Shown: one piece after another, positions 1-64,000 of the stretch | How the letters are laid out: every line of letters starts with the position of its first letter | Position numbering within the stretch: position 1 is the stretch's first letter | From: Watersipora subatra | Lineage: Eukaryota; Bryozoa; Gymnolaemata; Cheilostomatida; Watersiporidae | Assembly (NCBI RefSeq): GCF_963576615.1 | Contig: NC_088711.1 | Span: 23,468,182 to 23,532,181 of the forward strand | Length of the DNA stretch: 64,000 bases | Reading direction: 5' to 3' | Translations under genes and position numbers: made by a program | Notes under the pieces: model-generated | Told to the model about the DNA's origin: nothing | The model's input: the letters and a program-made list of their open reading frames with translations, nothing else | The model's database searches: none

Positions 1-912
1 ACTTTCCAAAGTTTATCCTTCTGCTTGTTTTCGTCACTGACTGTAAGATTGTTGACCACATGCAGCTTGGTGAGCAAGTCACGAAATCTATTTCTGCCTA
101 TAGCGGTGCTGACAGGAGGGTAGCTGGTTTCAATCTCCCAGTATTGTCTGACTGATGACATTCTAACTAAACCCATGTGAAAATACACCCCAAAAATCTT
201 TTCAATTTCCTTGTGGTCAGTTTGAACGGAAGTTCCAGTTTTCTGAACACTATAAATGTTGGTCTGCTGTACAATATTGTCAATCATTTCTGTAGAAATG
301 AACCGCCTAAAATATTCCAATGGGGTGTGAGTCGCTCCATCTACTGGTGGTTCAGGTTTTGGACCAGTGAAATCCAATGCAGATGGTGTGAAATTAGCCT
401 TGAGCCACCGATATTCTCTCCTCTGCCCCCGAACTGCATTCCCATTTGTTGGTTCCTCTTCTTCTTCATCTTCTGATTCATTATCAGACTCCTTGCAAAA
501 AAATGTCAACGTCAGCTTCCATGTATCAGTAAAATTTTGTTACCCGAGTATCATAGGCTATTGCAAATGTCTATAAATGTATTTACATGGGCATATGCTT
601 ATTATGGATGTATACACTATATTATACTGTAGTATATGTACATAAATTAGTATGTACGCTGTATAAGGACAGTTGCAGATATGTGGATATATGTGGAGGC
701 CGATATAACTTATATTGTACATGTATGTACATTAGTGAATATATGAATAATTTGTTATAAAATGCATATACCTGTTGTAGTTGCAAGTTAGTTTTTTGTT
801 GGGTAGCATCAAAATCATCATCGTCATCACTTTCTAGTCCTTCATAGTCACTGCTATTTCCATCTATCTCATCTAATACATTGTCCACAGTCATCCTGCG
901 ATGTTGAGCCAT
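1..912 (-). CDS. piggyBac-type transposase (PGBD-like), N-terminal part, two exons, cut by the window edge
   Basis: Cut-and-paste transposase of the piggyBac/PGBD family (DDE_Tnp_1_7). Exon 1 is 772-912 (47 codons from the ATG at 912), ending in an acidic DDDDDFD stretch. The donor GT is at 770-771 and the acceptor AG at 492-493. Exon 2 is 491-1 and open throughout. After an acidic EDEEEEE run, exon 2 shows the family's N-terminal catalytic-domain motifs: PLEYFRRFI, then TNIYS, the FGVYFHMGLVRM segment, RQYW, and the GRNRFRDLLTKLHVVNN block. The intron joins in phase 0. The catalytic aspartates and the C-terminal cysteine-rich domain would lie off the left edge. No stop or frameshift is seen, so it may be a recently active copy or a domesticated gene. 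The adjacent TTAA-type terminus favours the former. Confidence 0.88.
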
Positions 913-2183: not shown

Positions 2184-3072
2184 CCGTAAAACCTCTATTT
2201 GAGCGCCACTGTCATGCCACTATATTTCTCAACCCTTTCTTTATAGTGGTGTTCTATTAAAGGTGACATCCTAATAGAGGGCGACGTTTTTTCTCGACTA
2301 GTTGGTCAGAATTTTGGGAAAATAAATTTAACTCTTTTAATGGCGAAGCGATGCTAATGTTGCCTATATTTTGCGCTCTCCTCCGGGTGGAGCGACATTA
2401 ATTCTGTCGACCACGGCATTTCGCATACTGATTTTTCATATACGTCGAAGTATTAGACCGAGTTAAACCAGGAACTACTTTGCGTAAAACATAGGTGGAT
2501 ACAGTAATTCCTTATTGTGGTGGTGTTGCTTTTAAAAGTTTTAAGAAAAACTCAACAAGCTTTGGGCATTAAAACCGGACTTTGATACACCGTAACAATG
2601 GCTGCTATTACGTCGTACGGTGTTCCTGAAGAGTATTCTCATCATTTATTAAACATTTTATAGTCTTTGTCAGATTGTAAACTACATTATGGACAAATCT
2701 GAAGACAATGGATCGGATTTAGACCTTAGGGACTTTGTATCGGAGTGTAGTTCTGATGATTGTGACGATCAATCTTCGCAGGCACGCCATCACTAAAACC
2801 TTGGTAACCACTGCAGCACAGCAGCAACAAAGTAATTAATCGTTATTGATGTAATCGAGTCATTACTAGTACCATTTTTTGGACAATTTTCTACTGATCA
2901 CTTTTTATTATGGGTTTGTGAAGATCAAGCATAATAAATGTCAGAGTGCAAGTCTGATAGAGGTGGCATTCAAATAAAGGATGACGCTGTATTTCCCAAC
3001 TCTTTTCCTATATTGGTGTTCTATTAGAGGTGGCGTTCAAATTAAGATGGCACTCAAATAGAGGTTTTACGG
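2184..3072. mobile_element. non-autonomous TA-target element, 'CCGTAAAACC' family, copy A
   Basis: The ends are inverted repeats: CCGTAAAACCTCTATTTGAG at the left and, on the other strand, CCGTAAAACCTCTATTTGAG at the right. A TA dinucleotide lies on each side (2182-2183 and 3073-3074), as expected for the Tc1/mariner/pogo superfamily. Subterminal copies of the 'GCCACC...ATTTGA' motif repeat inside both ends. A 35-codon reading frame at 2689-2796, rich in Ser and Asp, may be a remnant of the parent's coding region. Related copies are at about 17470-17779, 30597-33648 and 59410-60864. Confidence 0.75.
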
Positions 3073-3074
3073 TA

Positions 3075-6000
3075 TATTAGAAAAATCCCTTAACAATAGT
3101 TAAGTTATAGGTAAGTTCAATAAAGTGTAGTTATTAAAATGATATATTGCCACTGTATCAATATTTTTTTTCTGCCAATGCTTCAGTACCGTGCTTTTAG
3201 CAACAAAACTTGTGGTTTACATAACGTAGACACCCTGTAATCGTAGCTATTAGTGAATAAGAAGAATGCCTCACAGTAAATGCCTCACAGTAAATGCCAG
3301 GTACACGGCTGAATTTGGTGTTGTTTGTTGTAAGCTAAAAATAATTTCAAGACAGTTATTCCTCTTCTCCATTCCAAAATTTACTTTGTATGTACAAACT
3401 GTCGCATTCTGCAGAAATATTCCTATAAAGATATTATGTGGTGAATTTAATTTATTCCCCTGTCCAAAACCTATGGTAAAACAAATTCATTAAATAAAAC
3501 TACAAGAAAGACTAAATTACATGTAACAAACCAAATTAAAAATAGAAAAGTTTTATTACTTTACCTCGGAGACATGTGTAAGAAAGTGTAGGCTTGGCAA
3601 GGCTGAGTTAATGAGGCAGAGGTGGTGATCGATACGCATGACTTAGCATACTCTAGACTGTGTGAAGGGTAGACTAGACTAGCTTATAAATTACTTACTG
3701 TTTTACACATCTTTGTTTTAATTTTTGCCAGCCTTGATACTGGGCCCATTCCTGTGACGCTGCCAATGTCATATATTGGACATATGTCTATGTCATAGCC
3801 TAATATTTGCTGGAATTTCATGTAAAATTGGCATGCTCAGGCAATCGTATATAGACAATTTCTTGTATTCACATCTGCTTGAAGTATATTTTTTAAGCTC
3901 ACTAGGAAGCTGAGCGTCTTTCTCTAGATGAAGTATGAGCTAACTCATAAAGGCCTACTTAGGTTTGTTACTGTGGAGTCACCGTATCAAGTTATTTTGC
4001 TAAAGTTACCTGACAAGTCACGAAGGTCAATCAATCTTGATCACAACTCCCAAAACTATTGGTTTGAAATAAAAAAATGTTTATCTTATGTTGACATACC
4101 TATTCGCTGCAGTCGTCAGCATGAACTAGTATGTTGTGATCATATAGGAGAATAATACTAACTCTCAAGTTTCATGTATATGATATAAACATATACTACC
4201 AGAGGATTTCTAAAAGTTGGTTTTCTCAGACAAAAACTATGAAAACTGATTCTTAGTTTGACATAAGCGATTGAAATATAATTTAAACTCCAAGTTCAAC
4301 CCTAGTAAATGTAAATACCCATGTAAATATGTAAACCCGTGTAAATAAATGGAATTCTGTAGAAAAATGACATTTGTTGAAGGTTACATTAGAATAAAAA
4401 ATCAAACACAGGGAAGCCACTACGTGTGTATATTCATAGGTCAGGGGCTTCAGTGGAATTCGTGGACACCCTCAAAGACATTGTTTCTTATTCGTTAGTG
4501 CAGACAACTCCATTTTCACATGTTGTCAAATATTCCCAAAAACCTACAACTTATTATTGAAATTAAAAAAGCAGATAACAATATTCAAATACTACTCTCT
4601 CAAAGCAAACTTGTGATGACCACTTCATGAAATACATTGAAGCCACATTTACACCAGTGTGTGAGTATTGTTGATGTTTTTGTGGCTAAACGCTCAGCAG
4701 TTGCGCATGCCTAGCGTAAATATTGCGAACGAACGGCTAGTTTGCACAGACGTTTAGCATCAGCACTGTTAAATTAATTGCTTGCAGATTAGCCACTAGG
4801 TAAGGGGGGTTGATATCGGTCCGGCTCTGCTTCTGTTAAGTTGCTACGAGGGTGAAGGCCAGTCAGTATATACCGTAGTTAATCAAGTGGCCGAGCTATG
4901 GAGTACTATGAGTCATCAAAATATGAAGAAGAGATGCTGTTAGAGTATAAGATTTTATATATACTATTTTTTAAACAACTCCTTTTTAAAAATGGTTTTA
5001 TCGATGTCGTCATTCATATTGAATATAAGGAACATTAGGACTAAAATATACATACATGTATGCTACAACCGTTGAGACAAGGAGCAGAAAAAACTTGAAC
5101 TGAATTTACTGGAGTCATCATTTTCGCCATGTGTGCTTTAATTGGCATAAAAGTTATGTTTAGACGCTCAAAATGAGACGCTTTCATTTCTTGCATCCGA
5201 AGTCACGACCGCTACTCGTCCTGACAATGTAAAGAGTTTCACTAGTCACACCGATGTTTTACAATGCTCATGTTCTCGTAGCGCCCAAGTCTCGAATTAT
5301 AGGCTTTTTCATGTTAGCGTAAACGTAGCTGAAATCCTCTTGTAAAACCAAACTGTTAAACAACAGGATATTTGTACAATTGTGTATATGGAGGTGCTTC
5401 ATATACCAAGCTATCTAACCATTTGCATACTTACAGGGATGATGAGTTTACTCCCCGTTCACGGTTAGTATAATAGCTCGCAAGACCCTGTCAGAGAATA
5501 AAGCGAATAAAGGAACTACTTTATTCTTTGACATTCTTTGTCCATTTGCTTGCAGTTGGATTGCTTGAATTAGAATGTGTGTTTTTGAACCATTGTTAAT
5601 CACCAAACGGTTGTTGTCTTTCCCAATCCTCGTGAATCTGCTATTCCAGTTCTAGGACTTCTACTCGCTCCCATGACACGTATAACATCTGTATGTGAGT
5701 CGCGTAACAACCAACGGCTTGTATTAACCAACTGATCAAGACATTTAATAGTTTGTGTATCAAAATAAGGGCAGTCCTCAGTGTGATTAAAAACTTAACT
5801 AGCAGCTTGTTCACTGGAGCCAAGGCTTTCAAACTCACCAGCTTGCTACAAAAAGTATGTCGCTGTTACAGCAACTCGAGTTGTTTTTGTATTTGTTCCC
5901 ATTATTCAGTGCAGTTGCACTCGCTATCCACTATACGAACTGTTTCATCAATTTATTAAGATTTTTTCTATTTTTATGCGTTTTGACGAAGTGTCTCAAA

Positions 6001-6257
6001 AGGATTTGAGGTACTCTGCACTTCCATATCAAGGTTATGAGTATATATTTAACATGGTCAGAGTTGCTTACTAATTTTCTAGATGTCTTTTTGGCAATAG
6101 AATTTGTGAAAGACTTGGTTTTTATGCGCTTTGTTCATATAAAAACATGTTTGGACAAAGTCCTTGCTTGAACACTCCAGCATAGTGCATGCGCTAGGTC
6201 ACATTATTGTGTAGTCCTATGTTCAGATAAATTATATAATCAGATTTCTAATTGCAG
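3075..6257. other. non-coding stretch upstream of the recognised exchanger exons
   Basis: I looked for upstream exons of the exchanger gene here and found none. Open frames at 3266-3493, 3928-4155 and 5753-5959 have no family resemblance or usable splice context. A weak inverted-repeat element may span about 4639-5335. The rest is plain AT-rich sequence. Confidence 0.4.
4639..5335. mobile_element. possible MITE with weak terminal inverted repeats
   Basis: AGCCACATTTACACCAGTG near 4641 and the reverse complement of the 5310-5331 region (AGCTACGTTTACGCTAAC) agree at roughly two thirds of positions. No clear target duplication was found, so this is tentative. Confidence 0.3.
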
Positions 6258-9200
6258 CATGAGCAGCCATGCAGGAAGCGATGGGGAGCTGCAGCATAAT
6301 GACACAGTCGTTGACATGCAAGCTCTTGACGCCCACTTTAGTAAAAAGATAGCCGATGACACAAAGACTCATCATATGCTTGAAGAAAACCTGATTGTTC
6401 CAAGAAGCAAGGTACACGTAGTAGTAGCACCGGCTGTATTAGTCCTTTACTGACTACCCTTGCGCTCCACAGAAATGTTCATTATAGGAAAGCGGTATGC
6501 AGAGCTGCTACAGGGTTTGCTGTGACATTTACAACTTATTGGCTTAGAATAAATATAAACTTGCATGATATAACGCTATTTTTACAACCTGAGAAGACAA
6601 TTCCTCCCAACTGTCATGCTTAGCAGGTGGGAATGAAACAGCATCAACGCCACACAATACAGGAAGAGGAGGCTGATGCCTCTCACCACAGCGCCTACTT
6701 CCACCACAATGCCAAGCTACACCTCAGGCACATGATTAGTAAGCATCAGCACCATCTGCAGGAGAGGAAAAAGCAGAGGGCACAGGCAAAGATGGATAAG
6801 AATAAAGGGATACCAAAGAATGTCAGTTTTGCAAATATTATGACGGAGCCCGAAGTGCAAGGTTGGTCGAATGTTGTTGTTTGCTATAACCAATAACACT
6901 AGTTGTACAAAAAATGATGAAATCAGGCAGGAGTCATGCTTACTGTGGTCTTCACAGTGAACATTGAATGTTTTGTTGTTGGCCACACGCAGTATTATCT
7001 GTCAAAGAATTTGTTTCTATTTTAGTATTAATGCCTCTGCTAATGAAATACATAATGTAGTGTGTTTGCCCTTATTAAACAGTTGACTTGAAGTTGTCTA
7101 AATCATCGCTAGAATAAAAGTGCAATTTAAATGTTGACTTGCAACAAAATTCACATTACCGTTATTTGATATGAAAAGATTCACCATGTCTTACTCTGTT
7201 GTGTAGTAGGTGCCAAATATGTGGAAAGGTGATTACAAACTCTTAAAAGCTCAAAAATGAACAGAAAATCGCAGCCACACGAGACCGCCGTAGTTTGGAT
7301 TCTCTTTCCAAAACGGCTCAAATGTGATGTAGTTGTGAAAGATGGTTTCTGTTTACACTTTCATGCAACCTTATTCGTCGAAATATTTTCACAAATATAC
7401 TTCACGCATTCAATAAAACTATGTCTATTGTTCTTACACGTCTGTTTTATCGTCATCGTAATGCTGTCACTTTTAGCAGTGATATTTTATAACTTACCGT
7501 AAAAATTCGTTTAATTTTTCAGCCTTAGCTTGAAAGAGTACATATCATTGTCTGATAATCATGACGAGCCTGTTGGTCATTTGTGATAATCGAAAAGTGC
7601 TCCAGAATTTATTTGCGAAGTATTGAGTCACATGATTAGATTACGACTTGCCGATTAGACCAAACCGAAACAAAACGGTAAAGTAGCGAGCATCTATATT
7701 TAATACGGGGTCTTCGGTAAAACCCGAAGTGTTTGTCATAAACAAGTGCTACGATAAGTTTTAGATTGAGCTTTTTATTGGCCTTTCAATTCACGTGAGA
7801 ACATTACGTGACAAGACAATAACCAAATTTCATGGCTACGTCATCAAAATAAAGAGATTCCAATCTACAGCGGCTTTTCGTTTTTAAGCTTTTAAGAGCT
7901 TGTAATCACATTTCCACGTATTTGGCACCTACAACACAACAGAGTAAGACATGGTGAATCTTTTGATACCAAATAACTGTAATGTGAATTTTATTGCAAG
8001 TTAACCTTTAATAACACATACATGTATACTAGATGCAAGTCAACCTTTAACACAAAAATGTGTCCATATACAATGCACTCTCAGGATACAATTTTAATCT
8101 GTTCCAGGGTTGGCATCGTATCGTGAAAAAATCGTATGGAGGGGTATAGAAACCACAGTAATTATATAATGCAAACATCCCTGGTAAAAAATCATCAAAA
8201 TTTTACACAAGTATTGTATATATATTAAAAATTAGTAATAAAATAGTATGTTAATCTTAGTAACTATAGTTACCTACAGTAACTTTGTTGTATGTATTGG
8301 TTATGATCAGCATTAAAATGTAACATTGCAATGTGCTGTACCTGATGTTATTACCTCCAAGACAGACGTACATATAGGAGAAACTTTCAATTCACTTTAA
8401 TTAAGTTTAGCTTACTAAACACACACTTAAAGCTAAGTTTTAGCATCCATTTTTAACTATTTTACTGAATTTCAACTTTTTATCACTAAAATTTTATCAC
8501 TTATTAGTTTCTGGCTTCGTTGTCACCATAACTTTTAGCCGACCTGATTAAAACCTTTTTCAACCTAATTAGGCAAGAAAAAAATCGAACGATTCTGTTT
8601 TCGTAATGAAGTGGACTTTTGTTAGCAGATTGACAAGAGGTTGTTTGACCATTTGTTCTGTTTAAAGGGATCGCAACTCCAACTTTGCTACTGGTTTTGA
8701 AGGAAAAACATTACTGTTTTGCACTCAAGAATTGCTGAATTGAGAGAAATCTCTTTCAGGCTTTGTGAAAATGTTTTCAGCGAACAGCCTTTCGGCCTCT
8801 TTGTCATTTTGACTTACGTAATAAGCACCCTGACTGCCAAATTTGAGCTCGAGCAAAAATTTTGTTAAATTTATATGGTGAGGTGAAAAAGTCATGTTTC
8901 ACTTAAGGTAAAAAATCGTATAGCAGGGTAGTCGTAATCCGAGTGTGCACTGTATTAAGCATATGTTTTCCTCTAAAGCAGACAGTATCAGCCCTTATCT
9001 GTATTAGGGTTTCTATTTTAAAAGTTTTACATGAGTTTCTTCTTACGTTAATCTAAGCAACATTTATATACCATTTATATTATATACCATCATCTATTTA
9101 ATGTTTGTTAAAATAGTCATACTCTAAAATCTATCTGAAGGCATTCTAACCGTATTTTATTCCTATTAACATTATTCTAATACCGAACAAGTTGTAAAAT

Positions 9201-17779: not shown

Positions 17780-18431
17780 TACGTTTAGTAAAAGATTAAA
17801 ACTTAGCCCAAGTGTGTGTCTAGTAAGCTAAATTCATTGAAGTTAAATTTAAAGATGTAGTTGCGTCAAAATTTAAGTTGATCTTAAAAGAAAGCATTTT
17901 TTTTTCTCTATCAGTTGATATGTTGTTTGTTGTGTTACGCAATCGCATTGCCAAGATATTTGAAGATTAAAACCGAAAAAATCTGATCGCCGTAAAAACG
18001 CTCAGGCCACAAAAACGTGCCCAGCCTCGCCAAAAATGACGTAACGCGTTTGGCAACCTGTCTCTATCTCTCGTATTCACATCGGCTATTTGCGATAAAA
18101 GTCTAGCCTTACGCGGCTCTATTGGCATATATCTTATTTTGTATTTGCTCATGTTGGCTAGAATAAAATTTTAAATCCTGCTACAGATGCATTATTATGA
18201 ATGTTTAAAAGGCCTCAAATAAAGAAAATTGAAAATTTGTTCTACTCACTTTCTCCAAATGTTGTGTAAACATTTGGGTACCGACTACCAATTCTACCGG
18301 TCTACAGTAATTAGGTCAAGCGAACTAAGTTGATGACGGTCTCTGTGTCAGCGCAGTTCTCAATTGCTACTCGAACGTGAAACTACTAGCTGATCAAGCT
18401 ACTACCGATATACCGGTATTGCGAAAATACG

Positions 18432-19120
18432 AATAACTTTTGCTCATAAATTCCAACTTTCGTTGTGTTTGACAGAGACTAAAGTGAAAAGGCAAATCAT
18501 TATTTAGTAAGTGAATAGTATTTTCATTTGTTTTGATTTGTTGCTCTATAAATTAAAACAACATTAGCCATACTATTTTAGTTCATAGTTGCAGAACGCT
18601 GTTGTAGTTAGCTCGACTGGTTTACTAGTCAATCTGTCATTTCAATTGACGAAAATACTTTAAGTATGAAATATTAATCGTGGTTATACTGTAGTTATTC
18701 AACTTCGTTCACTTTTACGTATCTTTAAACGTTGTCGTTTTAAGATAAGATAGACACACCTTCGTATTTATATGAATAACTTTTTCTCACAATTTCCAAC
18801 TTTCGTTGTGTTTGACAAAAACTAAAATGAAAAGGCAAATCATTATTTAGTTAGTAAGTCAATTAGTATTTTCATTTGTTTTGATCTGTTGCTCTATAAA
18901 TTAAAACAACATTAGCCATACTATTTTAGTTCATAATTGCAGAACGCTGTTGTAGTTCATTCGACTGGTTTACTAGTCGATCTGCCATTTCAATTGACGA
19001 AAATACTTTAAGTATGAAATATTAATCATGGTTATACAGCTGTAGTTATTCAACTTACTTCACTTTTTCGTATCTTTAAACTTTTTAGTTTTAAGATAAG
19101 GTAGACACACCACGTATTTG
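18432..19120. repeat. tandem direct duplication, period about 343 bases
   Basis: The block starting GAATAACTTTTGCTCATAAA at 18431 is repeated, with few changes, starting near 18774. Shared landmarks include TTTGTTTTGAT, GCAGAACGCTGTTGTAG and GTATGAAATATTAAT. It lies between the element's left end and the THAP gene, so it probably duplicates promoter or leader sequence. Confidence 0.85.
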
Positions 19121-19243
19121 TACGAACATAAATCTCGGCCATATTATGGATATTAAGAATTTTCTTCAAAGTCACATTAGGTTAATCACTTGAATATCGT
19201 GATATTTTTCTATTTGTTAAGAATAGTCTGCATAACCACTTCA

Positions 19244-21064
19244 ATGTTTCGTTGTAGCAGTGAAATGTCTTCAAGTCGACATTGGGCTCTCTCCTGTGCC
19301 GCAGCTAATTGCGAAGAGACCAAACATCTATTTGCTTGGCCTCGGGGAAGGACATCAACAGATGTACAGCGAGCCAAATGGACAGCATTTGTGAAGAAAC
19401 ATGTAGCAAATTTTCGATATAAAACCATATCTAGAATTTGCTTCCGGCATTTTACTGAGGAATGCTTCAGCAACTACCACCAATACAGGTACCAACAAGG
19501 AGAAGATATCCGGCTCATGTTAAAGAAGCACTCGGATATAATTCCCACACGAAACCTGCACATTAAAGCTGATTCTGCTGCTACCCCAAGGAAGCAGAAG
19601 CCAATTACCCTTTTGCCTACAAGAGAGCGCAGAGCAGTGGTGCGAGGCTTACTTGCTGATGCGTAAGTGGTGTAAGATGTGATAATGCACAGTACTAGGA
19701 ATCTTTGAATTTCACAAGTTATGTTATGAGCTTCCAATTTGAAAATATAAAACAACTCGTGTTTTACGGAAAAAAAAATTCTTGTCTATATATTACAGTG
19801 TTCCTGCAGTGCCTAGGACAGCAACCTTTTTTTCTCATTCACGATCGAAAATACCAGTTCGTAATCATCAGCCTGCCGAGTCCTTTGGACCTGGAAAGTC
19901 CTCTAAGGTTGACAAAGGGGTACAGCTACGGAAATGTCTTCACCGTCCTAAGTATCGGTCGATTTCAACCCAGACCGATGCTAAACAGTGAGTACAGTTA
20001 ACTTGTTTCATATGGTCGGACGGGATTCTTTTTTACAATATATATTGATAGTCTATAAACATTTATTCACAGGCCTGATCTTCCAGCCTCACCTCCATCT
20101 AAAAGAAAAATGCCAGTAGTCGATGAAGCAAGCTCCATTCCTTCTACATCTAAGCAGTTACAACGTTATTCTCTAATTATGGAGAGTGATACTAGTGATG
20201 AGATGCAGGAACGAGAGGAAGATCTGGTAAGTTACAAATACTTTGATAAAATGTCATAGCAATTTTTCCTTTTCTCATGCTTCTTTTACGTTAAAGACTT
20301 AGATGAGTTTCCTAAAATGCCATAGCACTTTTCTTCATTTTCAATGCTTCTTTTAGGGTAAAGCCTTGGATGAAGAAGAATGGGTGCCAGATTCAGATAA
20401 CAGTGAGACGGAAGACGAGGTTTCAGAAGAAAGCTTTGAGGGGTAAGAAATATAGTAACTGCTAGTTCGTATTTGATAATGCGTATTATTTCATCGATTA
20501 TATGTACTCACTGTCTTTACAACAATATTTATTTTAGCCTGCTTGCAGTAAGTATGTGTGTGCTTCCTGAAGAAGCTAAACATAGGCTTGCCTTGTCATA
20601 CGCTTGCTGCTTTCTCATGCCTGCCTAACAACGCTATTTTACATTCGAGTGTTTCACTTAATTGCCGCAAATCAAACTGTAGAACTCTGCTAGATATTTT
20701 GTAGTTGCTAGCTGCTGTTAAATTTTTTACTATTTATTAACTGTAAAAATGATTGATTTTTTAAATATTTCTAAATTTTAAATATTTACAATATTTCAAT
20801 CTTACAATATAAATATTTTATATATATAATATTTAGCTATTACTGAGAATCTCTCAGTAATAGCTAATCATACTGCTGATTATAATTCATAAGCCAGTCT
20901 GCCAGACAATACTTTGGCAGATGTGGCAAGACAATGAAGTGTTTAATTTTTTTTGTCATTTATCTTTTGTTGATGATTATAGCTGCAGGTTCGTTGATGA
21001 GGTAGAGGAAGCAGCCAGACAGGAGACGAGAAGTTTGTCAAGCCACATTTTTTCCATTGTCTGA
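19244..21064 (+). CDS. THAP-domain protein of the TTAA-bounded element
   Basis: Exons: 19244-19662, 19799-19987, 20073-20226, 20357-20442, and a last exon that I place at 20983-21064. All borders are GT...AG and phases agree, giving 309 residues. The N-terminal 90 or so residues form a THAP zinc finger: CAAANC supplies the first Cys pair, FAWPR and W follow at the usual spacing, and ICFRHF supplies the closing Cys-x2-His. THAP domains bind DNA specifically, often transposon ends. The rest is basic, then Ser/Glu/Asp-rich (DEEEWVPDSD), and contains no catalytic DDE segment. The start is at 19244 or at 19265, which has the better context. An AATAAA at 21257-21262 supports the distal last exon; an alternative exon 20538-20628 also keeps the frame. 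The last exon overlaps the 3' side of the opposite gene. Confidence 0.82.
20834..20867. repeat. hairpin in the THAP gene intron
   Basis: TAGCTATTACTGAGA is followed immediately by its inverted copy TCTCAGTAATAGCTA. The perfect stem could be a transposon footprint or a palindromic insertion. Confidence 0.7.
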
Positions 21065-21114
21065 CTGTATTCCTGTGAATTTTCTCTGTTCGTAGTTCAA
21101 CTCTATTTGCTACA

Positions 21115-21120
21115 TTTATT
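21115..21120 (-). terminator. poly(A) signal of the ballast-domain gene
   Basis: AATAAA on the minus strand, about 155 bases past the stop at 21274. The two convergent transcripts would overlap. Confidence 0.45.
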
Positions 21121-21256
21121 TTGCTGTTCGCCGTTTGCATTCATTGTCTTTTACTTTTTTATTTTTGTATATATTATACATTGCCTACAAAGTTTAAGTG
21201 TATAAATATATTAATTTATATTAAATAGAAATTATATCTTTATAGTATATTTGTAA

Positions 21257-21262
21257 AATAAA
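21257..21262 (+). terminator. poly(A) signal of the THAP gene
   Basis: AATAAA on the plus strand, 193 bases after the proposed stop at 21062-21064. It lies just beyond the stop codon of the convergent gene. Confidence 0.5.
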
Positions 21263-21273
21263 GTATATAAAAA

Positions 21274-22405
21274 TCACTCCACTGCAGTAAATTCAAATTC
21301 TGTATGCGCCATATCTGCGTATTCATCCTCATCTTCAGTGCCAGGGTATGCAGCTCGCACCATGTTATACACGCAGGCTGGTAGTGGTCGTCGCTCTCCC
21401 CTCCTAAGTCCTGTTGGATATGTCCAGAATACCAGAGATCTATACGCGCATAATCTCCTCTGCCTACACACCATGTTGTAGATGTCGCAGTCTTTCAGAT
21501 GGTACCAGGCTCTCCGCATCTGGATACTTGGGCTCTAACAAAATATCATACTTTTACAGTATCTTGATAACTTACTTGAAGTAAGCAGTAAAAATAGCAG
21601 CTACAAACCTCATAAGCTTACCATGGTAGTGGCAGTAGTTATAATAAGCCACTCTCAATGGACCTGGCTTTATTAGATCTTTTATTTCGTCAGCTTCGGT
21701 AACGCATTTGATACCAGTTTGCGGAATGGAATGCCACATGTTGTGATTTGTGCAGCATATGTTCATTTCTTTTTTACTCCACGCATGGCAATTCTCACAC
21801 TTGCACCACTGCTGAACTGGTGGTGCCACGTAAACATCCTGTAATCAATAAAACAAACGTAATGATTACACGCATTCATTGATGTCGTTCTAAGGTGTAT
21901 TTACGGTAAGGTTTCAATTTGGGAGTCAATTAGATTGCTAATCTAAAATCACGATATGAGTAAACGTTTAACAAAAATATAGGTATGTAAAATATATAAA
22001 TACAAAACCAGCAATTCGAAGCTTTGTTTTTGGTAGTTAATGATGAGCAATGATCAATCGATTTTACCCACTTCCTACGAGTGAAAATAATTTGTAATCA
22101 TGACTCTAATTTACCAAAGATTCGAAAAAAAATTAAAGCTAGGTAAAACGGCAGATGAGCTATGAAACGATGATTGGAGATAGCAAAGAATTATCATTTT
22201 ATTAATTAGTATATGTATTTATGACTATAAAAATTACATTTACTTAGGTATAGAAGACTCTAAGTTAATTTACCTCCATTCTGTCTTTCTCTACAGCAAA
22301 ACGCTGCTGACGCCTGTCAGCTTTCACCATAGGCTGCCTGCTCCTATCTTTGACTAAAGGTTGCTCAGATAACTCTGAGTCGCAGTAGCTCGAACATGAA
22401 GCCAT
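21274..22405 (-). CDS. P2X7-type C-terminal zinc-binding ('ballast', P2RX7C) domain protein
   Basis: Three minus-strand exons: 22274-22405 (ATG in AAAATGG context), 21609-21838 and 21274-21532 (TGA). Phases match and the protein is 206 residues. After a short polar N-terminus it has the ballast-domain landmarks in order: WCKCENC, ICC, KCVTEAD, LRVAYYNYCHYHG, CAYRSLVFWTYP, LPACVYNMVRAAYP, then an acidic tail. In vertebrate P2X7 this domain sits in the cytoplasm behind the ATP-gated channel and binds zinc and guanine nucleotide. Here it stands alone, with no P2X transmembrane or ATP-binding part. The Cys residues that bind zinc appear intact, as does the reading frame. It lies inside the TTAA-bounded element, convergent with the THAP gene. 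A role in transposition is possible but unproven. Confidence 0.85.
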
Positions 22406-22796
22406 TTTAAAACTATAACTTGTATGTAGTAATTGGTGAAAAGCGCTGAACCAGTAACGGTGAGAATTCTCTATCGAATGAGAATCTTCGAGATCACAGA
22501 CAACCCGTTTTACGAGTGATAACATTTATTACGGCCTATATAAAAATTTCGCGCTCGTGATTGGCTAACGAAGCGACCTCATATTTATCGCTCGTGGTTT
22601 CGTTTCAGAAAACAAACTCGTTACGTCACGAAATTGGCACCCGCTGGAACGTGAGCTTTTTAAAAGAGGGCCTCATTCAAACGCATATATCTCTGGACAG
22701 GGTTGGTCTACAAAGACAAAAATGGCATCAAATTGTAGCTGATGTTTTAGCCTTTTATGCGTCCTAATTTCATTTTTGACGCAACTACATCTTTAA

Positions 22797-25194
22797 GGTT
22801 TTCGTTACATAGTACATTGTACTGAATGGGTTGCTGACAAGTCTCTCAGACTGCCATTAGTCAGGACATGTCTCGATGGTAACAACTTACAGCAGGGTAC
22901 ATAATAATGTTACATTTTATTGCAGATTTTAACAGCTGAATATGTATTCATTACTTTGTTAGTGTATGTAATGAATTACAACAATCCAAAACGTTTTTCT
23001 ACATGAATATCCTGTTTTATGTGGTTTTTTCATAGTATGGTAACATATTCAATTGTATTTAGTTACATGTATTTTATATAACAAATAATGTCATGCGTCA
23101 AGAGTAAATTGACATACGAGCTCAGTCTCAGAACGCATTAGACTCGTATGTCGAGGTATGACTGTAATGAAATCATAGTGATAGTCAATATTTATTAGTG
23201 AGAAGTCTATTTCATAATAGCACTGGTAAGGTACCAGTGCTACCTATCCTTACCAGGTAGGTAGCACTGGTAAGGTATGCACTGGAAAGCGTAAGATATC
23301 GAAACTATTTAAATAACAAGTGGCAATGAAAATTATGTAACACTTCGTTATTTACTTCAGCAGTGTATTTTATGATGTACTATCTACAAATATTTACACA
23401 ATGGAAGGTAAGCTCAGGGTAGATAACTCATGTTAGCTATCTAAACTATTACCCTCTACTTATTTGTTTAACAAAAACGCAAATCAAAAACCTAAAGAAA
23501 TTGTTTTACAGTTCTCCTATCACTTTGTTGTCAGATCTAAACTAATAAGCAACTCTAATGTATGTACGTATGTAAGTATATGCTGTTGAATAACCTTGTG
23601 ACCAAATTCACATAGTATTTAGTTACTCAGCTCTGTGTGTACCACTTATTAATAAATCTTTTGTAGTTTTCTAGTACAAAAAAGCAAATTTGAGCTGAAT
23701 TAAGTGAAAATGAGAATAATCAATACTTAAACTCATAAAGATTAATGATATTAGACCTCCACAACAAATAATTGCAACCTACGGAATCTCATATAGGTTG
23801 CCCTGTGGCAACACAGCAATATGTAGCCGATCTTACACAAACAGAACAAATGAGCAATGCAACTGTTTAGCAGATGTTTAGTTATGGATCTAGAAACTTT
23901 CAATTTTTTGTCTCAACTACATTTCTAAATCTGCAGCATATGTTTGCTAGACCATGACTTCGATTAAAAAAATAAGCCATTACAGATCGTAAAAGAAAGC
24001 AAGAACTAAACTTAAAAAATAGAAAAGAAAAAGTCTGATAATAAATTGTGCTCTAATCTTTTCTATGCTTGATATAACTTGTCAATTTTTACTGAATACA
24101 GGAGGAGCTTGGTCTGCTAAGAAATGTTTTTTATCAAAGAAATGTCTCTTAATGACAATTATCGCCCACTTTTCTCTGTATTTACAGTTTTTATGACTTC
24201 AAGTCATACAGCTTTAAATTTAACTAATCAAACTCTGCGACTTTCATTGCGGTAGCGCAAACTAGTCTTAGCCAATGCTGATGTTTGAAATGGTTGTTCC
24301 ATTCTAGTTTTGTCACAAAGGAATGATGCATGGCTGATTATCAAGTTTTTTTTTCGATTCAAAAGTAAAGTAACATGCTTCAACAGACTGAAGTAAAAAT
24401 AAAATTCGTGCAGCATGCATGCATGCTCTTGTACCTTCCCATTGAAGACTTCGTGTACTCGGTTCTCAACCACGATGAGTTATTTGAACCACTAATATAA
24501 ATGTATGTTTTAGGCTAAATATGCTGACCAAAAGTTTGATTTGAAATTTAATTAGGCTAACAAAGATCTCTTTGTTTTAATAACAAGTACGTTTGATACA
24601 GTAAAAATTGCCGTATGAGGTTTCACGTAAGAGCCATAAAATATACGCGCTCTTGTAATGGGAGGTACAAATCTTTTGTCGATAGCTCGTTTTTTAACTG
24701 TGATACGCGCGTCTAAAAATCAAGGTTGGTGGCGTTCCTCAAACTTGCTAGCGTAGTTTGGCGATGTAAAATATATCGGAGAAAACCTCACAAAGTTAAA
24801 ACTTTTATTTACGGCGGTGGGCTCTGTAACTATAGAACCGATGTAGGGCTAGGCCAAAGCACTTTTTGGAAAAATGTTGTGGCAAGGTCATGGACATGAG
24901 TGAAAACTGCCTACTACGGGCATTTTTTAAGGAGAATTCAAATACGGTATAGTAAGATAGTGCTTGGAAAATTTTTACAAAGGGTAGTTTTTTATATCTG
25001 AAAATTTGGGGAAGAAACTCCAAAGAACAATTGAGTTATTTTCTCATACAAAATCGAGCAATCCTATTGGAAAATGTTGATTTTAGCGATTCAAGTGCAC
25101 ATTTATAACAGGAATTTCCCGCAATGTCATGATACAGCTACGTTATGTATTCAGTTTTATTTTGTTATTATTTTTATTGTAAAAGTTTTTCTTC
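22797..25194. other. non-coding region with transposon scraps
   Basis: 23085-23165 looks like one end of a Tigger-like element: on the reverse strand, CAGTCATACCTCGACATACG, with an inner repeat GAGCTCGTATGTC. At 23222-23275 the motif GCACTGGTAAGG occurs three times, once in reverse. The remainder shows no gene or recognisable repeat. Confidence 0.45.
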
Positions 25195-56700: not shown

Positions 56701-59262
56701 CATCTTTTACAGTACCACTTTTTTGAGATTGTGGTATACTGTAGCGGTTCTAAAACAGAACAATACTCTAAATTTCACGTTATGAGTTTTGGTCATGATA
56801 ATAAAACAATAAGGTGCATCTAGTTTAAGTAGACTCAAGAACAAACTGGTCGCGCCTTATGATCTTATCATATTGGGTTGAAAAAGTGCCACCAATGATT
56901 ACATGTTGTTCCTATCTCAAGTGTGTATTTCTGATAAAAAAAACTTCTACAACATTGCTGTAAAGGGTCGCTTTGCTCAGCAATAGATTATATTATTGGT
57001 TTGTGCTAGAGTATTATAAACTCCTCTCATATGCTAAAGCCCATGATACCAAGACATAAGTTAGGCTTCACACTAAATACTCATCTGTGGCTAATAGCCT
57101 GTGACTTGCAAAACCTGTAAAAATCAGTACCGCTCTGAGAGGGCTGAGCCAAACATTTTTATAATGGTAATTATGCAATTGGCTTTTCGATCAGGTTAGA
57201 TTAAAACTCAAGCAACTTGTACATATAGCTACAATACTTACATGTACGTATAGCTACTTATAAGTATGCATGCCACTTATCTTTGTATATATTTAGTATA
57301 CAGGCATATATATGTATATATGAAAATATACAAACATATATATATATATATATATAAACATATATATATATAAACATATATATATATATATATATATAAA
57401 CATATATCTATAGGCATACCAATCTTGCCAAGGCTTGGATCGACTACAAAAACGCCTATGACTCAATTTTCCATAGTTGGATACTTGAGTGCCTCAGTAT
57501 GTATAAGGTTCCCCCTGCTCTTGTGGCATTCATCAAGATGTCAATGACCAAATGGAAGATGGAACTGGAGGCTAATGGCAAAAAGCTGGCGAGTGTAAAA
57601 ATTAAGCAAGGCATCTATCAGGTGACTCCATATCACCGCTGCTCCTCTGCATATGCCTAAACCCTCTAAGCAATATGCTGGAGAAGACTCAATATGGGTA
57701 CCAGTTTAAGAGTGGCACCAAGATAAACCCCCTCCTCTACACATGCATGACATCAAGCTGTACGCTAACAAAGAAAGGGACATTGATTCGCTAATACACC
57801 TCACTCAGGTATACAGCAAGGACATTGGAACGACCTTCGGTATTGAGAAATGTAGGAGGCTAATTCCTAAGAAAGACCATTCTATGCTCACAGATAGCCT
57901 AAGAATGCCAAATAGTACCATCAAAGATGTAGAAGAAGGGTACAAGTACTTGGGGATTATGCAAAACAACATCAACCACGAAGCCGAAGTACATCACAAA
58001 GCCATTACTGAATACAAGAAACGCCTTCGGCAGGTCCTACGGAGCCAGCTCAATACCAAGAACCAAGTCATGGAAATAAATACCGACGTACTGCCAGTAA
58101 TAAGATATCCAGCAGGCATAATAAAGTGGACTGAGGAAGCCATCAAGGAAACAGATATAGCAACTCGTAAACTGCTGACCATGCATGGAGCACTCAACCC
58201 AAAATTTGATACTACTAGATTGTATCTCGATAGGAAATATGGCCGTAGGGAACTCAAAAGTGTACAGCAGACAGTGAAGGAGGAAGAACAAAGCATCAAA
58301 GCCTGTGCAGCTTCCATGGCCACTTCAGATAAGTTGCTAGCTGAACTTCAATCAGCTGCTCTGACAATGGAGCTTTGCAGTGATGATGAGGAAACTGACT
58401 GGCACATGAAACCTCTTCATGGTGCCTACCATCGACAAGTATCTAAGGTTGGTGATCTTCACCAGACATATATGTGGCTGAACAAAGAAAACCTAACGGC
58501 CAATACAGAGTCGCTAATCATGGCAGCCCAGGAGCAAGTGCTCCCAACAAGGCAACTCCAAACAAGAATCTATCACAATAGAGACGAGTCTAAAAGCAGA
58601 CTGTGCAAAAATGCACCTGAGACCATCCAACACATCATCAGTGGATGCAAACAGCTCGCAGGAAGCGCATAAACAGAGCGGCATAATCATGTCGCAGGTG
58701 TTGTGTATAGAAGTCTATGTGATGAGTATGGCCCTAATAAACCAAAATACTGGTGGGAAGCTCCTGGTAAGGTCAATGAAAATGACCGCGCTAAGATTCT
58801 CTGGGACTTCTACATCCGGGCTGACAAGCATCTCCTAGAAAACCAACCAGATATAGTGGTGGTGGACAAGGAGAGCAAGAAGGCTACTATAATAGATATA
58901 GCAGTACCCAATGACTACAATATAGCCAGCAAAGAAAAAGAAAAGGTAGAGAAATATCTCTCTTTTGGAGACGCGATTGAAAAATGCTGGGATGTAAAAA
59001 CAACGGTAATCCCAGTAGTCATTGGGGCACTGGGCGCAATAACACTGGCGCATAAAATGTGGCTTGCCCAAATACCAACAACAATCAACTCAGGTGTGTT
59101 GCAGAAAAGTGCGCTATTGGGAACAGCTAACATCTTGAAGCAAATGCTCAAACTCCCAGTTCTCTGGTAGGAGACCTGAGTTAGAGCAGAAATTACCACC
59201 CACACGGGTTAACCGGGGTGAGGAAACAAGTTTTTATACATATAAATATATATATATGTATG

Positions 59263-62140: not shown

Positions 62141-62329
62141 GTGAGTACAGGTTATGATTGTTACCCGTGTTATGAAATAAAATATGTTTGTAATCGCTTA
62201 CAGGCTTATCTATTGCTTTCTCCACAAAAAGCCTGATGTTTATACATTTATATTTACCTCTCATGTGATAACAGCTGACTCAACTTATCTGCGAGCTGCA
62301 CAACAACAATAAAATACTTCTAGATAGCA

Positions 62330-64000
62330 GTAGCAAGTAGCAAAGACAACTAGCAGATGCAACTAGCAAAGACAACTAGCAGATGCAACTAGCAAAGACA
62401 ACTAGCAGATGCAACTAGCAAAGACAACTAGCAGATGCAACTAGCAAAGACAACTAGCAGATGCAACTAGCAAAGACAACTAGCAGATGCAACTAGCAAA
62501 GACAAATAGCAGATGCAACTAGCAAAGACAAATAGCAGATGCAACTAGCAAAGACAAATAGCAGATGCAACTAGCAAAGACAAATAGCAGATGCAACTAG
62601 CAAAGACAAATAGCAGATACAACTAGCAAAGACAACTAGCAGATGCAACTAGCAAAGACAACTAGCAGATGCAACTAGCAAAGACAACTAGCAGATGCAA
62701 CTAGCAAAGACAAATAGCAGATGTAACTAGCAAAGACAAATAGCAGATGCAACTAGCAAAGACAAATAGCAGATGCAACTAGCAAAGACGAATAGCAGAT
62801 GCAACTAGCAAAGACAAATAGCAGATGCAACTATCAAAGACAAATAGCAGATGCAACTAGCAAAGACAACTAGCAGATGCAACTATCAAAGACAACTAGC
62901 AGATGCAACTAGCAAAGACAACTAGCAGATGCAACTATCAAAGACAAATAGCAGATGCAACTATCAAAGACAACTAGCAGATGCAACTATCAAAGACAAA
63001 TAGCAGATGCAACTAGCAAAGACAACTAGCAGATGCAACTATCAAAGACAACTAGCAGATGCAACTAGCAAAGACAACTAGCAGATGCAACTATCAAAGA
63101 CAAATAGCAGATGCAACTATCAAAGACAACTAGCAGATGCAACTATCAAAGACAAATAGCAGATGCAACTATCAAAGACAAATAGCAGATGCAACTAGCA
63201 AAGACAACTAGCAGATGCAACTAGCAAAGACAACTAGCAGATGCAACTATCAAAGACAAATAGCAAATGCAACTAGCAAAGACAAATAGCAGATGCAACT
63301 AGCAAAGACAAATAGCAGATGCAACTAGCAAAGACAACTAGCAGATGCAACTAGCAAAGACAACTAGCAGATGCAACTAGCAAAGACAACTAGCAGATGC
63401 AACTAGCAAAGACAAATAGCAGATACAACTAGCAAAGACAACTAGCAGATGCAACTAGCAAAGACAACTAGCAGATGCAACTAGCAAAGACAACTAGCAG
63501 ATGCAACTAGCAAAGACAAATAGCAGATGCAACTAGCAAAGACAAATAGCAGATACAACTAGCAAAGACAACTAGCAGATGCAACTAGCAAAGACAAATA
63601 GCAGATGCAACTAGCAAAGACAAATAGCAGATGCAACTAGCAAAGACAAATAGCAGATGCAACTAGCAAAGACAAATAGCAGATGCAACTAGCAAAGACA
63701 AATAGCAGATGCAACTAGCAAAGACAAATAGCAGATACAACTATCAAAGACAACTAGCAGATGCAACTAGCAAAGACAAATAGCAGATGCAACTAGCAAA
63801 GACAACTAGCAGATGCAACTAGCAAAGACAAATAGCAGATGCAACTAGCGAAGACAAATAGCAGATGCAACTAGCAAAGACAACTAGCAGATGCAACTAG
63901 CAAAGACAAATAGCAGATGCAACTAGCGAAGACAAATAGCAGATGCAACTAGCAAAGACAACTAGCAGATGCAACTAGCAAAGACAACTAGCAGATGCAA
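62330..64000. repeat. 26-base minisatellite, about 64 units, running off the right edge
   Basis: The unit is GCAACTAGCAAAGACAACTA + GCAGAT. Two main variable sites are seen: C or A in 'CAACTAGCAG/CAAATAGCAG', and G or T in 'ACTAGCAAAG/ACTATCAAAG'. The variants are clustered: TATC units are confined mainly to about 62825-63250 plus one near 63740. It lies in the intron after SLC22 exon 6. Confidence 0.97.

Follow-up and report, generated by a model that had tools for sequence, protein, structure and literature searches.

A non-autonomous Kolobok-type element in the bryozoan Watersipora subatra that pairs THAP and KolX genes and lost its DDE core in a single deletion

The window analysed here is a 64,000-nucleotide stretch of contig C4 of the bryozoan Watersipora subatra, in which positions 17853-22792 form a single mobile unit of 4,940 bp with a THAP gene on one strand and, on the other, a gene for KolX, a protein akin to the 'ballast' domain of the P2X7 receptor. 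This element is almost certainly a Kolobok transposon of the Kol0 type that has undergone an internal deletion and is no longer autonomous; its full-length relatives encode a THAP-DDE transposase together with KolX. Short and full-length copies share their ends and the TTAA target, the full-length copies hold the whole gene set, a single deletion with filler sets the short form apart, its scar recurs at eight loci, and the copies that bear it are near-identical and lie at unrelated sites.

Results

The element in the window is bounded by 19-bp terminal inverted repeats (TIRs), AGATGTAGTTGCGTCAAAA, which were found by sequence comparison at 17853-17871 (+ strand) and 22774-22792 (- strand), show no mismatch between the two ends and adjoin a TTAA target-site duplication at 17849-17852 on the left and 22793-22796 on the right. 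Matches to the TIR with at most three mismatches number three in the window, compared with a mean of 0.03 in shuffled sequences. The left TIR begins with AG (5'-RR), and the termini AG...CT fit the 5'-RR...YY-3' pattern of Kolobok elements; the TTAA duplication, likewise a mark of Kolobok, is present on both sides of this element and of L079, a second copy described below. In a search of the whole genome, TTAA joined to the 19-mer gave 456 + 446 matches and the reversed control 0 + 0. The exact ends, the two TTAA sites and the dispersed copies bear out an initial annotation, made from the letters of the window, in which inverted ends and TTAA were held to delimit one 4.94-kb mobile unit. Upstream of the THAP gene lie two head-to-tail copies of a subterminal repeat of about 345 bp (18427-19111, + strand), which are kept in the full-length copies and are possible transposase-binding or promoter repeats. 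The third TIR-like match in the window, at 23906-23924 (- strand), has three mismatches and no adjoining TTAA, and is probably a chance match or a decayed end.

Three loci, L061, L062 and L078, hold full-length copies of 8,063, 8,036 and 8,034 bp with the same ends as the window element. In each of them tblastn finds the THAP exons, the DDE segments and, on the opposite strand, KolX, with the THAP exons upstream of the core and on the same strand as it. A Pfam scan of eight open frames of L062 returned THAP, PF20700 and, below its cut-off, PF20478. The DDD/E triad of Kolobok, with C/DxxH between the second D and the E, is present in the full-length copies (GD, TDRH, DSWH and LESFH), and in an alignment of nine proteins that includes fish and mussel sequences the blocks GD, TDRH, DxWH and the E of LESFH appear in most rows, the truncated rows being without some of them. 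The W. subatra protein P0005 matches PF20700 (E 1.4e-15), P0006, a model that is missing one exon, gives no PF20700 match at E ≤ 1, and both run from 45 residues shared with the THAP gene of the window into the transposase core. In the mussel protein P0012 a THAP domain and the DDE core belong to a single chain; a full-length W. subatra transcript of THAP plus core was not seen joined as one database protein. Among 11 loci checked for the core segments, all four were found in seven, five of them stop-free. The pairing of THAP with TTAA, which had already been read as a sign of Kolobok, is thus matched by full-length copies with THAP and a PF20700 core. Two other W. subatra proteins stand further off, P0004, a divergent THAP protein with 54% identity to the window reading, and P0007, a second DDE protein with 32% identity to P0006; they probably point to one or more additional Kolobok families in W. 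subatra.

The DDE core was reported as not visible in the window copy, and tblastn of P0005 and P0006 at E ≤ 1e-3 indeed matches only the 45 shared residues of exons 3-4 there, with a degenerate C-terminal transposase piece at E 0.13. Aligned to L062, the window element is 98.8% identical over positions 1-2968 and 98.0% over 2995-4940, and in all three full-length copies the sequence to either side of a single gap is 98-99% identical to it. At this gap 3,114 bp of L062 (element positions 2966-6079), the middle of the transposase gene, are replaced in the window copy by a filler of 26 bp (20821-20846) that is common to eight loci. The filler is partly an inverted copy of the flank of the right breakpoint and forms a perfect palindrome with 16-bp arms at 20833-20848 and 20852-20867. 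Palindromic filler is expected from repair synthesis with a template switch. These alignments indicate that the window copy lost its DDE core through one 3.1-kb deletion, and the longer copies with the same ends, for which the initial annotation had advised a search, carry the core together with both genes.

A search for the junction sequence of the scar, with three mismatches allowed (control 0 + 0), gave eight loci, all of them exact matches: one each on contigs C2, C4 and C9, two on C7 and three on C8. One of them, L079, is 4,940 bp long, has TTAA on both sides and differs from the window element by four mismatches over 4,940 positions; given this near-identity at a shared scar, the 4.94-kb form must have moved as a unit. 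Pairwise comparison of the first 1,778 bp at seven of these loci shows 1-10 differences; the eighth, L014, was set aside because some 1 kb more separates its left end from the scar, an extra length that we take as an insertion. The left flank is TTAA at six of the eight loci and CTAA or ATTA at the other two, and apart from two brief stretches of similarity (57 and 106 bp) the left flanks are unrelated. Both genes recur together in the full-length and shared-scar copies, and two further loci, L069 and L070, have deletions with breakpoints other than that of the window copy.

Among the matches listed (the first 100 of 902), shorter forms are the most numerous: 34 of the 38 adjacent end pairs fall in a size class of about 2 kb, the remaining four measure 3,511, 4,947, 7,832 and 8,012 bp, and 24 ends have no partner. 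In eight short copies, of which seven measure about 2 kb and one 3.5 kb, similarity to the window element is confined to the first ~500 bp and the last 0.9-1.05 kb, and in the ~2-kb copies the right ~1 kb covers KolX exon 1 at 83-87% identity. Inverted ends that lack both genes had been named as a finding that would speak against the mobile unit, and such ends are largely what the ~2-kb copies show; since short copies are normal non-autonomous derivatives, they leave the mobility of the element standing.

The THAP gene of the window copy is a five-exon GT-AG chain on the + strand that reproduces the database protein P0002 exactly, the only fit among the chains tried. Transposase exon 1 (19265-19662) encodes the THAP DNA-binding domain (PF05485; E 6.9e-7, 30.4 bits against a cut-off of 23.9 in a Pfam profile search) and is followed by exon 2 (19799-19987), exon 3 (20073-20226) and the acidic exon 4 (20357-20442), which with part of exon 3 supplies the 45 residues found unchanged at the beginning of P0005 and P0006. 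The last exon of the THAP-only gene (20983-21064), ending at the stop at 21064, is a degenerate duplicate of the C-terminal exon of the transposase, and full-length elements carry the same duplicate: L062 has three successive partial copies of the C-terminal exon at element positions 4635-4877, 5095-5202 and 6217-6294, two of them degenerate, of which the last is the final exon of the THAP-only model. We had considered this exon as a remnant of the transposase C terminus left by the deletion, and rejected the idea because full-length copies have it downstream of the true C-terminal exon.

The KolX gene is split into three exons on the - strand and lies tail to tail with the THAP gene. Compared with P0001, an annotated W. 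subatra relative of KolX, exon 1 lies at 22274-22405, exon 2, which holds the cysteines of WCKCENC...CC...C, at 21622-21838, and exon 3, with the P0001-type acceptor, at 21274-21534, where the window copy is 8 bp short near 21490. With the splice sites of P0001 the reading meets a stop after 139 amino acids, whereas a weaker acceptor just downstream, from which exon 3 starts at 21491, keeps the frame past the 8-bp difference and gives 188 amino acids. The window KolX is accordingly either frameshifted or intact through the weaker acceptor; the view that it is simply broken was softened, as the downstream acceptor both preserves the reading frame and yields a higher PF20478 score. The 8-bp lack was read directly at four loci, L058 with the scar and L053, L054 and L059 without it, and is therefore not private to the deletion; the KolX match is split at this site in all eight shared-scar loci, and one reaches only residue 177. 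Two spliced readings of the window gene, in which the 17 residues under dispute are passed over or exchanged for others, score 28.6 and 28.5 bits against PF20478 (cut-off 23.5), while P0001 itself (20.0 bits) and the window reading with P0001 splice sites (18.9 bits) remain below the cut-off.

Eight cysteines of P0001 (C56, C58, C61, C72, C73, C89, C148 and C173) align with cysteines of human P2X7 476-595, the common pattern being WCxCxxC...CC...C...CAYR...LPxC; the P2X7 ballast fold binds zinc through seven cysteines. Among 29 candidates in the protein database a single relative of KolX was found at E ≤ 0.001, from W. subatra; viral contigs gave no KolX match, and no solved structure similar in sequence was found. 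An AlphaFold model of P0001 from the single sequence had a mean predicted local distance difference test score (pLDDT) of 35 and was unusable. The initial annotation had described two spliced, intact, tail-to-tail genes, of which one was a stand-alone P2X7 ballast gene. Splicing and orientation hold for both genes, and the THAP domain lies above its cut-off; 'intact' is doubtful for KolX, which is 8 bp short of P0001, and the ballast identity rests on the shared cysteines and the two readings above the cut-off, with P0001 and the P0001-spliced reading falling below it.

Elsewhere in the window, an open frame at 3-539 (- strand) that reaches the window edge matches PF13843 (DDE_Tnp_1_7; E 6e-21), which we take to denote a piggyBac-type transposase, so that another transposon lies nearby. 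Two consecutive open frames at 57710-59170 (+ strand), the first with a zf-RVT match of 21.5 bits, below its cut-off of 27.5, are perhaps a retroelement remnant, and an array of a 26-bp unit at 62324-64000 (64.5 copies, 96% match), which runs up to the window end, is likely a satellite. A tRNA search found no tRNA genes.

Discussion

The mechanism best supported for the window element is ordinary cut-and-paste transposition, in which a THAP-DDE transposase made by full-length copies acts at TTAA and carries the 4.94-kb form along as a passenger. After excision, repair of the gap from a full-length sister copy may have been broken off, and the interrupted repair finished by template switching, which would have left the palindromic filler. 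Because it keeps both ends, the short form would be movable in trans, the transposase of full-length copies cutting and moving it at TTAA. The only product that its own gene can give is a THAP protein devoid of the catalytic core; this protein could bind to the ends in competition with the transposase, and KolX would be an accessory zinc protein of the element. Action together with a transposase supplied in trans had been one of the options first put forward, and the window copy is most likely dependent in this way, the core being found only in the longer copies; the proposal that the ballast domain travels on transposons is likewise upheld by KolX in full-length and short copies alike.

Several observations weigh against this account. 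Each of the full-length copies is flawed in some respect: L061 has TGAA for TTAA at one end and a frameshift in the THAP gene, KolX exon 1 contains a stop in L061 and L062, and the core of L078 has a stop. Mobilisation of the short form in trans is what we infer from its near-identical copies. The W. subatra lineage has its own ends, and the window copy differs from described Kol0 elements in having no catalytic core; its placement in the Kol0 lineage (Kolobok-1_XT type) was made by gene content and termini, not by a tree with Kol0 references. Shared with that lineage, as described in PMC9587614, are TTAA, the RR/YY termini and a DDD/E transposase accompanied by KolX.

A different reason for the success of the deleted form is suggested by Drosophila P elements, which belong to another superfamily. 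Their target site has 8 bp, unlike the TTAA of the W. subatra element. Like it, they have internally deleted non-autonomous copies, whose repressor products keep THAP (PMC7776569), and a repressor role, reported for KP in the same source, would apply to the W. subatra form by analogy. The THAP-only protein would then repress transposition, perhaps assisted by KolX, and this would account both for the spread of the deleted form and for the retention of its THAP gene, a reading that we consider unlikely. The anatomy is the same, with the catalytic part deleted and the THAP domain kept, and THAP-only gene models, P0002 (three members) and P0003 (eight members), exist in the protein database. THAP exon 1, in which amino-acid changes are few, is held by 18 of 30 left-end loci, of which 16 are gap-free, including L004 of the window, and two gapped ones were excluded; in the 16 there are 16 synonymous changes per 1,357 sites against five amino-acid changes per 4,493, plus two stops. 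However, these comparisons are not independent, as all use the window as reference, and nine of the 16 loci do not share the scar. The seven shared-scar loci read have one synonymous and no amino-acid change in exon 1 and are too young to show selection, and the KolX of the short form may be frameshifted. Selection for repression would also be unneeded for spread, because non-autonomous P copies can outcompete full-length ones and spread by competition alone (PMC12393704).

More speculative still, and rather improbable, is an extension in which the short form limits itself: its THAP-only protein would sit on the ends in the manner of KP, and KolX would act in trans as a guanine-nucleotide and zinc assembly factor for the transposase. 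A title cited in PMC7776569 states that P element transposase uses GTP for assembly on DNA, and the P2X7 ballast domain has GTP/GDP and zinc sites of unknown purpose according to PMC9859053; of the residues that contact GDP in the rat protein, PMC7016195 gives only R546 and R578 as conserved in invertebrate ballast forms.

The remaining alternatives have almost no probability left. A distinct THAP and ballast family, in which the core was never present by design or has diverged beyond recognition, could appeal to the eight loci with a coreless scar, but copies 98-99% identical on both sides hold a recognisable core exactly at that scar, and alignment and tblastn of the full-length copies refute this family and with it the divergence that the initial annotation had allowed for. 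That two fixed host genes, a domesticated THAP gene and a nanor-like gene, merely lie between inverted ends has a precedent in reported domesticated Kolobok transposases and KolX proteins (PMC6004289, PMC9587614), yet it is refuted for the window locus, also as the alternative first raised, by eight dispersed near-identical copies on five contigs, with largely unrelated flanks and at most 10 differences per 1,778 bp among the seven compared. A piggyBac-type element, which also targets TTAA, is rejected: Kolobok termini of 5'-RR and YY-3' are unlike those of piggyBac (PMC9587614) and the window element starts with AG, most of the seven cysteines are missing from a piggyBac protein, in contrast to KolX, in which eight cysteines align with P2X7, and the transposase matches PF20700 and THAP instead, with no PF13843 match among the 13 proteins P0001-P0013 or the eight open frames of L062.

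Much of the setting is already in print. Kojima and Bao (2022; PMC9587614) described Kol0 Kolobok elements that encode KolX, with a ballast fold and seven cysteines, and proposed that P2X7 arose by fusion with KolX; a ballast domain carried on a transposon is therefore published, and so is the bearing of the ballast gene on the origin of P2X7 that the initial annotation had suggested. The cysteine pattern is common to KolX, the P2X7 ballast domain and nanor (PMC7016195, PMC9587614), with the difference that KolX is a stand-alone transposon protein and no channel. Xenopus XKol elements share AG termini, TTAA and a THAP and DDE transposase (PMC6004289), but measure 6.8-13.9 kb (Table 5 of that paper), and 'KolX' does not occur in its text. 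KolobokP is also a Kolobok group reported from Bryozoa, yet it has long terminal direct repeats and a His-Me finger nuclease (PMC9587614); neither trait was seen in a repeat search of the window element or in the eight open frames of L062. Rump et al. (2020; PMC7016195) traced the ballast domain across Metazoa, in a main text that does not use the word 'transposon'. The 'ancestral synteny' of stand-alone ballast genes given there may reflect transposon products, and so may an Ixodes protein in which a ballast region is listed together with a 'TAHP' (THAP?) domain at the N terminus. Among the papers listed in literature searches, with Repbase lying outside them, none describes this W. subatra Kolobok family, and the W. 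subatra genome note (PMC12902671) does not contain 'transpos'.

The union of THAP and ballast genes without a core is explained: the two genes belong to a single Kolobok element whose middle has been lost. 'THAP-only' and 'ballast-only' gene models in the W. subatra annotation can accordingly be transposon products. This young, multi-copy family, whose full-length, 4.94-kb and 2-kb classes all occur in a single chromosome-level genome, offers a good place to ask how KolX acts and hence what P2X7 captured. In the rather improbable case that KolX is an assembly factor, the P2X7 tail would be a transposition cofactor put to new use, and its original role could be tested in W. subatra.

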